Below, piece after piece: positions 56,699-59,740 of a stretch of 64,000 bases of DNA. Source of the stretch: Marasmitruncus massiliensis (lineage in GTDB: Bacteria; Bacillota; Clostridia; Oscillospirales; Ruminococcaceae); the NCBI RefSeq assembly GCF_900186535.1, contig NZ_FYDE01000005.1:410895-474894 (forward strand). Reading direction: 5' to 3'. Position numbers and translations under genes: made by a program. How positions within the stretch are numbered: the stretch's first letter is position 1; each line of letters opens with the position of its first letter. Under the pieces are notes generated by a model. The model was not told the DNA's origin, searched no databases, and was given only the letters and a program-made list of their open reading frames with translations.

Positions 56699-57127
56699 AT
56701 GAAACAGGCATTGGTCCTGAAAGCAATAGCAGATGAAACCAGGATGAACATTCTCAAACTGCTTTTGCAGCGCAACTATTGTGTCCGTGCACTGGCCCGG
56801 AAGATTGGCATTTCGGAAGCGGCCGTCTCCCAGCATTTGAAGGTTCTGCGTGAAGCGGATTTGCTGGTTGGTGAAAAGAAAGGCTATTTCATGCATTACT
56901 TTGTCAACAGAGGCGTGCTTCATGAATTGGCCGCCGGCATCAAATCGCTCGCTTCCATTGAGAGCCAATCCTGTATGCCGGAACACGACGTCCCTCGCAC
57001 AGGCAGGTTTGAAAATTGTTCCAAAGGCGGCTGCATGAATGAAGCCAAGGATTACTGCCGTGAAAGCCAAATGCATGAAGGCCAACAAAGCCACCGGTGC
57101 AATCATCACAAGAAAAGCGGGGAATGA
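56699..57127 (+). CDS. ArsR-family metal-responsive regulator with Cys/His-rich tail
   Basis: 142 residues. A winged helix (residues 1-85) includes KAIADETRMNILKLLLQRN and ARKIGISEAAVSQHLKVL. The C-terminal extension of about 55 residues is rich in ligands (SQSCMPEH; FENCSKGGCMNEAKDYC; HRCNHHKK), which suggests metal or metalloid binding outside the canonical sites. ATG 56699 has TGGAGG eight bases upstream. First gene of a unit with two half-size permeases; represses through the operator immediately upstream. Confidence 0.9.
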   Translation: MKQALVLKAIADETRMNILKLLLQRNYCVRALARKIGISEAAVSQHLKVLREADLLVGEKKGYFMHYFVNRGVLHELAAGIKSLASIESQSCMPEHDVPRTGRFENCSKGGCMNEAKDYCRESQMHEGQQSHRCNHHKKSGE

Positions 57128-57130
57128 CAG

Positions 57131-57610
57131 ATGTTTACCTATTTCCTATACGGTGCGGCCGGAGGACTGCTGCTTCTTTCTTTCACCAAAGACAAACAGA
57201 AAACCTTCATGGTGCTGAAAAAGGCATGGAGGTCTTTTGAAAACATTCTTCCACAGTTTCTCTGTATCCTGCTCATTATAGGAATGATGCTGTCGGTTTT
57301 GGATGCCGATGCCATCTCTCATCTGCTTGGCAGGGAGTCCGGTGTGCTGGGGATGGCAATTGCGGCTGTATTTGGCTCTATTACGCTGATTCCGGGATTT
57401 GTGGCGTTTCCGCTGGCCGCCTCTCTGCTAAAAGCAGGCGCGGGATATGGCCAGATAACCATGTTTATTACGACGCTCATGATGGTCGGCATTGTGACGC
57501 TGCCTGTGGAAATGAAATTCTTTGGCAGGCGCACAACAATTAAGCGCAATCTGTTTGCATTTATTTATGCCGTCTGCGTCTCCTTGATTATCGGGGGTGT
57601 CATCGGATGA
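57131..57610 (+). CDS. Permease half A (YraQ/ArsP-like, DUF318 superfamily)
   Basis: 159 residues with four to five spans (ILPQFLCILLIIGMMLSVLD; GSITLIPGFVAFPLAASLLK; GQITMFITTLMMVGIVTL). Looks like one half of the usual ~300-350-residue ArsP/YraQ permease, with the SITLIPGFVAFPLAASLL segment in the pore-forming region. Starts three bases after arsR and overlaps half B by four bases. Regulator type suggests export of a thiophilic metal or metalloid compound. Confidence 0.83.
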   Translation: MFTYFLYGAAGGLLLLSFTKDKQKTFMVLKKAWRSFENILPQFLCILLIIGMMLSVLDADAISHLLGRESGVLGMAIAAVFGSITLIPGFVAFPLAASLLKAGAGYGQITMFITTLMMVGIVTLPVEMKFFGRRTTIKRNLFAFIYAVCVSLIIGGVIG

Positions 57611-58149
57611 GAAAGATCTGGATGCTGATTCAGCGATATCGTTTTTTTCTGATTCTGTTTGCCGTCAATATTCTGCTGCTTTTTGCCGCGCCGGAAATTG
57701 GGAAAAACTCTTTTACTGTTACCAAAGAGAACTTTTTGGAAATGATCTCGATTTTACCGCCTATCTTTGTTCTTCTTGGCTTATTGGACGTCTGGGTAGA
57801 GCGTGAAACAATGATGAAGTATATGGGCAAGGACGCCGGAATCAAGGGGGCCGTGATCGCATTTATCATGGGATCTGCCGCCGCGGGGCCTCTCTATGTC
57901 TCTTTTCCGATTGCCGGCATGCTTTTGAAAAAGGGTGTCAATCTGAAGAACGTATTTATTTTTGTCGGTGCGTGGTCGACTACGAAGATCCCAATGATAC
58001 TGTTCGAGGCCTCCAATCTCGGGTGGCGTTATATGCTGCTGCGGCTCGTTTGTAATGTAATCGGCATTGCGGCTATTGCTGTGATTCTGGAAAAATCGAC
58101 ACCCGACGCCGAACGTGACGCAATCTATGAGATGGCGAAGGATCAGTGA
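57607..58149 (+). CDS. Permease half B (YraQ/ArsP-like, DUF318 superfamily)
   Basis: 180 residues with four to five spans. AFIMGSAAAGPLYVSFPIAG and VFIFVGAWSTTKIPMILFEA match the second repeat of the family. Its IMGSAAAGPLYVSFPIAGML segment mirrors SITLIPGFVAFPLAASLL in half A, as expected for inverted or duplicated halves. The overlapping ATGA start suggests both halves are made together and pair as a heterodimer. Confidence 0.83.
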   Translation: MRKIWMLIQRYRFFLILFAVNILLLFAAPEIGKNSFTVTKENFLEMISILPPIFVLLGLLDVWVERETMMKYMGKDAGIKGAVIAFIMGSAAAGPLYVSFPIAGMLLKKGVNLKNVFIFVGAWSTTKIPMILFEASNLGWRYMLLRLVCNVIGIAAIAVILEKSTPDAERDAIYEMAKDQ

Positions 58150-58241: not shown

Positions 58242-59528
58242 TTACTGTCCCTGAAAAGCGCCCTCAAGATCTGCAATAATGTCATCGATATGTTCCGTAC
58301 CGATAGAAAGCCGGATGGTATTTGGCTTGATGCCCTGCTCCAGGAGTTCCTCCTCCGAAAGCTGCGAATGGGTGGTGGAAGCCGGATGGATTACGAGCGA
58401 TTTGACATCGGCCACATTTGCCAGTAGGGAAAAAATCTCGAGCCGGTCAATGAAATCCTGCGCTTCTTTAGCGCCTCCCCGAATCTCAAAGGTGAAAATG
58501 GATGCACCGCCGTTTGGAAAGTACTTCTGATACAGCGCGTGGTGGGGATGATCCGGAAGGGACGGGTGGTTGACCTTTTCCACCTGCGGATGACTGCTTA
58601 AATACGAAACTACTTTCAGCGTGTTTTCCACATGGCGTTCCACGCGGAGGGAAAGTGTCTCCAACCCCTGCAGGAATAAAAACGCATGCAGCGGGGCGAT
58701 GGTCGCGCCGGTATCCCTGAGCAGGATTGCGCGGATCTTTGTGACAAACGCCGCCGCGCCGACCGCTTTTGTAAAGCTGATGCCGTGATAGCTCGGGTTA
58801 GGATCGACAAGGGAAGCAAATTTTCCGCTCTTCTCCCAGTCAAATTTTCCGCTGTCTACGATAACGCCGCCGATGGCTGTACCGTGCCCGCCGATAAACT
58901 TGGTTGCGGAATGCACGACGATGTCAGCACCATATTCGAAGGGCCGGACCAGATAAGGCGTTGCGAACGTGTTGTCCACCACGAGCGGGATGCCATGCCT
59001 GTGCGCAATGTCCGCAACCTGCTCAATATCAATCAGCGTTGCGTTGGGATTCCCGATGGTTTCAATAAAAATTGCCTTTGTATTTTCGCTGATCGCGTTT
59101 TCAAAAGCGCCTTCCTCATCAGGGTCAACAAAGGTTGTGGCAATACCGTATTGCGGCAGGGTATGGGCGAGCAGATTATAGGTGCCGCCATAAATTGTTT
59201 TGGCAGACACAATGTTATCCCCCGCCTGCGCCAGATTCAAAAAAGTATAGGTAACTGCTGCCGCACCTGATGCCACACCAAGCGCCGCAACGCCGCCTTC
59301 GAGTGCCGCAATACGCTTTTCAAATACATCCTGAGTGGAATTGGTCAGGCGTCCGTAAATATTACCGGCATCGGCGAGCCCGAAACGGGCAGCGGCATGG
59401 GCTGAATTTTTAAAAACATAGGAAGTGGTCTGATAAATGGGAACGGCGCGGGAATCGGTAGCGGGATCGGGCTGCTCCTGCCCAACATGGAGCTGCAGTG
59501 TTTCAAATTTATAAGAATGTTTGCTCAT
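58242..59528 (-). CDS. metY: O-acetylhomoserine sulfhydrylase MetY
   Basis: 428 residues of the Cys/Met-metabolism PLP family, of the longer O-acetylhomoserine aminocarboxypropyltransferase type. The PLP Lys lies in [17 protein letters not shown]; other segments are [40 protein letters not shown] and the C-terminal [20 protein letters not shown]. Makes homocysteine from O-acetylhomoserine and sulfide. ATG 59528 has GAGG eight bases upstream. Its start codon region (CTTACAATG) is exactly complementary to codons 20-22 of a leader ORF, so translation is probably controlled. Confidence 0.95.
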
Positions 59529-59565
59529 TGTAAGTACCTCTTTCATTCAAATGATTTATGTTAAG

Positions 59566-59640
59566 TCAGCACCGCTTACAATGGCACATTCGCCCGTTTC
59601 TAAAATTGTGTCTGAGCATTTTGTAAATGATGGAATACAT
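59566..59640 (-). CDS. Cys-rich leader peptide upstream of metY
   Basis: 24 codons, beginning MYSIIYKMLRHN and ending RMCHCKRC, with a strong AAAGGAGG nine bases before its ATG. Three of the last six codons are Cys. Codons 20-22 (CAT TGT AAG, 59583-59575) are perfectly complementary to CTTACAATG (59534-59526), which contains the metY start codon. It lies inside the 177-base metY leader. A function as a cysteine-sensing leader peptide is inferred. Confidence 0.6.
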   Translation of the reverse strand: MYSIIYKMLRHNFRNGRMCHCKRC

Positions 59641-59711
59641 TTGCAGATGCCTCCTTTACAGATTTTAAAATTACAGGCCGCATTCTATATAATTCATATA
59701 AAATTAATATG

Positions 59712-59740
59712 ATTATAACTGTGCAAAGGATTCTTGTCAA
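59712..59740 (-). promoter_or_regulatory. metY promoter
   Basis: Minus strand TTGACA (59740-59735), exactly 17 bases, TATAAT (59717-59712): a full consensus promoter. Start of transcription about 59705. No SAM riboswitch or T-box pattern is visible in the leader. The remaining 59741-59840 stretch holds nothing recognisable. Confidence 0.9.

Follow-up and report, generated by a model that had tools for sequence, protein, structure and literature searches.

Leader peptides and other devices that control sulfur amino-acid genes

In leader attenuation of the his and trp type, a short ORF carries regulatory codons, and the position of the ribosome on it picks between two RNA structures. Arrest peptides, among them TnaC and the plant CGS1/MTO1 peptide, are short nascent chains, encoded before a sulfur or amino-acid gene, whose last residues are conserved. 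In Bacillota, genes of the kinds discussed here are controlled by the S-box (SAM-I) riboswitch and by Met/Cys T-boxes. Cysteine leader peptides, with Cys codons near the end of a short sulfur-gene leader, are known, to judge from the accessible portions of the sources, from cys operons of Actinobacteria (PMC1262725), from the polycysteine ORFs of mycobacteria (Canestrari 2020, as cited in PMC13236596) and, as uORFC-8-2, from the region before cysS of Rhodobacterales (PMC8632094).

The leader described here, which precedes metY in Marasmitruncus massiliensis, has something in common with several of these. It resembles his/trp-type leaders in its short ORF and in the predicted role of ribosome position, and some of its relatives also have a competing antiterminator and terminator; it differs from them in that a single Met codon is fixed behind CGA, in place of a run of regulatory codons, in the conservation of its peptide, and in that this particular leader would act on the start of translation and not on a terminator. 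It shares Cys codons near its end with the known cysteine leader peptides, but these belong (as far as the accessible text of their descriptions goes) to other phyla and other genes, whereas here Cys is not constant and the leader has a CGA-AUG core and an N-F-R-x-G peptide. Conserved residues at the nascent-chain end recall TnaC and CGS1/MTO1, but arrest is here only putative and the sequence is not known to resemble theirs.

The accessible portions of six papers (PMC8632094, PMC2965389, PMC4046918, PMC11805395, PMC1262725, PMC13236596) deal with Cys leaders of Actinobacteria and Rhodobacterales and with His leaders of bacilli, and contain neither a CGA-AUG leader nor a metY leader. A search of the open-licence full-text literature, which takes in neither subscription journals nor preprints, likewise gave no description of the CGA-AUG leader, and the strings FRFGRM, NFRFGR and NFRNGRM were absent from that literature. 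The CGA-AUG leaders look like an undescribed family of putatively sulfur-responsive switches.

The leader ORF upstream of metY

In the window (the whole stretch of 64,000 nt analysed here), metY occupies 58242–59528 on the minus strand, as do the promoter and leader described below, and its product is an O-acetylhomoserine sulfhydrylase, scoring 646 bits with TIGR01326, for which the cut-off is 495. The longest listed metY ORF begins at 59546, but the start at 59528 is preferred because of its ribosome site and homologues: the translation start region (59522–59540) has GAGG at 59537–59540 and the start codon at 59526–59528. The promoter, TTGACA-17-TATAAT at 59712–59740, has 12 of 12 consensus matches, as originally predicted. 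Between promoter and metY lies a leader ORF of 24 codons (59566–59640), MYSIIYKMLRHNFRNGRMCHCKRC followed by a stop, with a strong ribosome-binding site, AAAGGAGG (59650–59657), nine bases before its start. A short ORF with a ribosome-binding site in this place, as is expected of attenuation, is present in the window and in 40 of 110 metY loci surveyed. Codons 13–18 of the window's leader encode the conserved core F-R-N-G-R-M (59587–59604), the last two of them being the pair CGA-AUG (Arg17-Met18, 59587–59592), and codons 19–24 a Cys-rich tail, C-H-C-K-R-C (59569–59586).

No Rfam family reached its gathering score within the window, and no SAM riboswitch, T-box or other Rfam element was found in the leader, either here, where the original prediction had seen neither of the first two, or on the sense strand of 33 leader-bearing metY loci scanned with Rfam models, which sets these loci apart from those under S-box or T-box control. 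T-boxes do occur upstream of metY on the opposite strand only (L074, 1555–1810; L135, 203–461, minus), and a SAM riboswitch lies upstream of metY in one (L101, 1157–1271) of 40 scanned loci that lack CGAATG.

Two other features of the genome may be mentioned. Downstream of metY, on the other strand (56699–58149), are genes for an ArsR-like regulator and two permease-like ORFs, named from the look of their translations; and a second MetY-like protein, encoded elsewhere in the genome (G000:C2:359177–360433), is 54% identical to the window's MetY.

Distribution of the leader family and its partner genes

The window's ORF belongs to a conserved family of leaders of sulfur genes, nearly all in Clostridia. 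The survey of 110 MetY-related loci (30 from related genomes and 80 from contigs, with seven, L027–L033, representing a paralogue of 52–54% identity) revealed CGAATG within 300 nt upstream of the gene in 47 loci, against 2–9 loci for each of eleven other hexamers. The hexamer stood in frame inside a plausible leader ORF in 40 loci, one isolate with such a leader being Massiliimalia massiliensis (L077), and was missing from 62; eight CGAATG loci without a plausible leader (L005, L022, L027, L079, L092, L121, L133 and L137) were dropped.

Short ORFs are common in intergenic DNA, so it might be supposed that both the ORF and its complementarity to the metY start are due to chance. Conservation refutes this and leaves it next to no probability: in 391 genomes of the class a DNA pattern for the peptide core had 30 matches, spread over 28 genomes, compared with three for the reversed pattern in the same 391, and 28 of the 30 were leaders immediately preceding metY (26, counting the window's own) or the gene of a MetQ lipoprotein (two), the other two being unrelated. 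The 24-codon Cys-rich ORF of the original prediction is therefore a real leader.

A profile of 28 leader peptides matched in 38 of 197 genomes of the order; among the order-wide matches listed, the leader was present in 29 of 30 loci. Its partners there were metY (20 cases, five of which were read from context, the script having hit a wrong or internal start), genes for MetQ-like lipoproteins (five), MetN (one) and an SsuA-like sulfonate-binding protein (one), and a gene for a DUF2292 small protein (two). Another MetN gene and one for an amino-acid ABC permease came from searches for the terminator-type leaders discussed below. All of these partners function in sulfur acquisition, or plausibly so. 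The DUF2292 protein (PF10055; 54 aa, at L189 and L196) has the same leader peptide before its gene and a terminator-like hairpin after it, and the presence of the leader suggests a role for this protein in sulfur metabolism.

A sample of 299 genomes from the phylum yielded the window's own genome and one further match, which was judged spurious (its Arg codon is AGA and it has no leader context). One leader, L085, is in a metagenome-assembled genome labelled Treponema, which may reflect transfer or misbinning. Four of the leader peptides, searched against Pfam and NCBIfam at E values up to 10, had no match.

How are the remaining metY genes regulated? No common leader ORF was seen in 56 metY loci lacking CGAATG. 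An enriched word in these loci was CCTATTGACA, an operator-like stretch at the −35 box, and CCTATTG overlapped the −35 box TTGACA in 12 of the 56, against 0.8 expected. This word resembles an operator of the Rrf2/CymR type, and metY genes without the leader may therefore be controlled by a repressor.

The constant features: CGA-AUG and the peptide core

On sequence comparison, the constant feature of the family is the codon pair CGA-AUG, not cysteine; it went unremarked in the original prediction. The pair mostly closes a peptide N-[FYW]-R-x-G-R-M, the commonest form being M-x(15)-R-M. In two codon-blind sets, which have two leaders in common, the Arg before Met was always encoded by CGA: a peptide search of the metY set that allowed any Arg codon gave 25 leaders, all 25 with CGA, and the order-wide profile search gave 29, again all with CGA. 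CGA accounts for only 35 of 739 Arg codons (4.7%) in the 41 long ORFs of the window. In the same peptides the Arg of F-R uses all six codons and the Gly all four, from which it appears that the core is kept as a peptide and CGA is kept as a codon.

Altogether 92 leaders could be compared after removal of two duplicates. The FRxG type made up 76 of them, though many of the 92 had been collected with a peptide or DNA pattern for the core N-[FYW]-R-x-G-R-M; the other 16 lack the FRxG pattern, and leaders without N-F-R-x-G retain just CGA-AUG. The leaders thus show conservation at the amino-acid level near the proposed site, with synonymous codons free to vary, as would be looked for in an arrest peptide. 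Exactly 16 codons precede CGA in 58 of the 92.

The codon after Met is a Cys codon in 50 of the 92 leaders and a stop in 24 (19 TGA, 5 TAA), so codons for amino acids of the pathway stand at the supposed stall point, Met throughout and Cys next to it in about half. Conservation of the Cys codons across homologous leaders, by which the cysteine-sensing design was to be checked, did not hold up, and Cys codons were rejected as the conserved feature because so many leaders stop at R-M. Cys is nonetheless frequent where there is a tail (98 of 308 residues in the first five tail positions, against 1.8% of codons in window genes). Tail Arg codons also tend to be CGA when Cys follows: 12 of 21, against 3 of 48 elsewhere (Fisher 9e-6; this and the other P values given here are optimistic, many of the sequences being related). 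In L062, upstream of metY, the leader CGAATGCGAATG has the CGA-AUG pair twice running (R-M-R-M-C).

The host genome carries tRNA-Arg(ACG), which should read CGA via inosine. A pattern search for tRNA-Arg(UCG) in the host gave five places, none of them a tRNA by ARAGORN; the pattern was not exhaustive, and reversed controls gave as many places or more. In Salmonella his-leader assays, CGA was read poorly compared with CGU and CGC (PMC4046918, in its accessible portion). These data together suggest, by analogy, that CGA may slow the decoding of the sensor codon that follows it in clostridial hosts too.

That six bases are invariant in the codon-blind sets would also be explained if CGAAUG were an RNA element recognised by a protein or by another RNA, with the reading frame secondary. 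Such an element would not be expected always to be the in-frame Arg-Met of an ORF with a ribosome site, or to be flanked by a peptide that is kept while its codons vary, and the preference for CGA before downstream Cys codons is more easily understood as a codon effect than as part of a fixed hexamer; we regard this explanation as very improbable. Slightly less improbable, but still doubtful, is a pure cysteine sensor, in which stalling at the tail Cys codons alone would control metY. The 50 leaders with Cys directly after R-M, the Cys-rich tails and the predicted masking of the window's stem by a ribosome at Cys codon 19 all speak for it. Against it stand the 24 leaders with a stop right after Met, the greater constancy of CGA-AUG than of any Cys codon, and the presence of the same leader before metQ and metN, which makes cysteine doubtful as the only signal. 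Of the cysteine-sensing switch originally proposed, the leader and the predicted freeing of the start by a ribosome survive, but not the exclusive role given to a codon that proves not to be invariant.

Predicted masking of the metY start

As had been noted from the sequence, codons 20–22 of the window's leader (CATTGTAAG, 59575–59583) are a perfect 9-nt complement of CTTACAATG (59526–59534), which includes the metY start codon. Addition of the preceding leader codon and metY codons 2–3 gives a helix of 12 pairs, with a single bulged A, between the switch segment UGCCAUUGUAAG (59575–59586) and the masked stretch CUUACAAUGAGCA (59522–59534). When the metY start region is paired with the 30 nt that follow CGAATG, the computed duplex energy is −18.9 kcal/mol; 3 of 5000 shuffles of these 30 nt did as well, and an equally long perfect complement arose in 9 of 5000. 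The whole 236-nt leader folds only modestly better than its shuffles (z −1.94; 8 of 200 as good).

The effect of a ribosome was modelled by masked folding, an equilibrium calculation with an assumed footprint of 29 nt. In the window, predicted access to the start region rose from 0.07 to 0.45–0.61 with the P-site at every tested position from CGA to 24 nt past it, which bears out, in silico, the suggestion that a ribosome held near the end of the leader would leave the metY start open. Among 69 short-spaced leaders (those in which CGA and the start are over 115 nt apart being excluded), the start region was less open (0.41) than when the 30 nt after CGAATG were shuffled (0.48–0.51), and a ribosome at CGA or AUG added 0.12–0.13 to its openness, against 0.01–0.03 in six rounds of shuffling.

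Individually significant complementarity to the start region was present in 15 of the 69 (3.5 expected), with the window among the strongest, and was non-significant in 54; the count leaves out L176, L178, L183, L184, L186, L189, L190, L192, L193, L195 and L196 as duplicates or as having a misassigned main start. Such complementarity is thus present in a minority of homologous leaders, and since five of the 15 are close relatives (L143–L147), the 9-base stem seems to be one of several solutions.

Terminator-type leaders and the position of the putative sensor codons

The leaders have two wirings: masking of the start site, the window's type, here called type (a), and a terminator/antiterminator arrangement, type (b), found in 19 leaders. 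Both occur within one genus, the window and L006 being of type (a) and L013 of type (b). In type (b), the first segment lies 11 nt after CGA and is CUCCCGGGC or a sequence close to it; its partner is a second segment resembling GCCCGGGAG, which pairs alternatively with a third segment, mostly ahead of a U-run (the third segment was picked by a script and looks wrong for L086 and L184). A search with a terminator-type pattern gave 51 places, compared with six for the reversed control; 39 of the 51 were examined (30 loci and nine further places) and yielded 11 leaders, including two that had been found before (L205 = L177, L220 = L184). Members found in this way give no evidence for CGAATG or the spacing, because the pattern fixes both CGAATG and the 11-nt interval.

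Masked folding of the 19 type (b) leaders predicted mainly the antiterminator without a ribosome (antiterminator 0.71, terminator 0.28) and with the P-site at positions from 24 to 6 nt upstream of CGA (antiterminator 0.72–0.84), and mainly the terminator with the P-site from CGA on (0.71–0.79). In silico, then, a ribosome at CGA-AUG opens type (a) and shuts type (b). Two competing RNA structures between which ribosome position chooses, as attenuation demands, are thus predicted for both wirings.

The positions of Cys differ correspondingly. Of the 19 terminator-type leaders, 17 have a Cys codon among the four codons preceding R-M, as do 6 of 84 others (Fisher 1e-12); among the four codons following it, Cys is present in 5 of 19 and 55 of 84, respectively. 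Met occurs within the six codons before R-M in 10 of 19 terminator-type leaders, the other nine having none there, and in 3 of 82 others. With Cys so placed, a stall at Cys would be predicted to open the gene in both wirings. This shift of Cys with wiring to gene-opening positions is the strongest argument that shortage of cysteine, and in many leaders of methionine too, is a signal.

A model for the leader and its main rival

We infer the slowness of CGA in these hosts, the signal and the direction of control, and on balance we think it probable that the leaders work by ribosome-position attenuation, reading the decoding of Met and Cys at a site slowed by CGA. A ribosome translating the leader would reach CGA-AUG, which would be decoded slowly, CGA being read by the inosine-type tRNA-Arg(ACG); were Met-tRNA or Cys-tRNA short, it would wait there or at Cys codons just after. 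In the window, the waiting ribosome would cover the switch segment and leave the metY start open, and more MetY would be made; with both charged tRNAs plentiful, it would run off, the segment would pair with the metY start and translation would fall. In the terminator version, a stall at Cys (often Met) codons before CGA-AUG would free the switch segment for the antiterminator.

Some observations do not sit easily with this. Masked folding predicts that type (b) genes are shut off by a ribosome that waits for Met at CGA-AUG. If Met shortage were simply being sensed, this polarity would be wrong, unless the upstream codons decide first. Either CGA-AUG in type (b) is a site of default pausing, giving the off state whenever the upstream codons are read freely, or the peptide arrests the ribosome in response to a metabolite. 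The leaders that stop at R-M have no Cys afterwards and could sense Met at most, and most short-spaced leaders (54 of 69) have no individually significant complementarity. Nor does a mere codon sensor explain why N-[FYW]-R-x-G is retained, or why so many leaders have exactly 16 codons before CGA.

It is for these reasons (the polarity of type (b), the conserved N-F-R-x-G, the fixed 16 codons and the R-M-stop leaders) that a metabolite-sensing arrest peptide is the main rival. Here N-[FYW]-R-x-G-R would occupy the exit tunnel while CGA stood in the P-site, followed by Met, stop or Cys, and a metabolite such as methionine, SAM or cysteine would arrest the ribosome. The core conserved over varying synonymous codons would suit such a peptide, as would the preponderance of TGA (19 of 24) where the leader stops after R-M; and if ribosomes were arrested at R-M under plenty, genes with terminator-type leaders would be shut off, which is the sensible direction. 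In the start-masking type, though, arrest under plenty would open metY; the Cys-rich tails, the CGA before tail Cys and the shift of Cys between wirings would go unexplained; and the 16 leaders outside the FRxG pattern keep just CGA-AUG. We therefore think it rather unlikely, though much less so than the cysteine-only and RNA-element explanations.

It is tentatively suggested that CGA, never replaced by another Arg codon in the codon-blind leaders, and the conserved nascent peptide may act together to bring the ribosome to a timed stop at one Met codon. This stop would serve as the ruler by which Cys and Met codons are placed, before or after it according to wiring, making the leaders a widespread clostridial family of Met/Cys (or SAM) sensors; this reading we put forward as quite possible, with less confidence than attenuation.

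If this is right, a leader-peptide route would be added to the control of sulfur amino acids in Clostridia, for which the textbook devices are riboswitches and T-boxes. The leaders would also be a clear example of a synonymous codon preserved by selection beside a sensor codon, and the effect of the codon pair on regulation would be testable by single silent changes. Finally, the occurrence of two wirings even within one genus would show how the same stall module can serve RNA switches of opposite logic.
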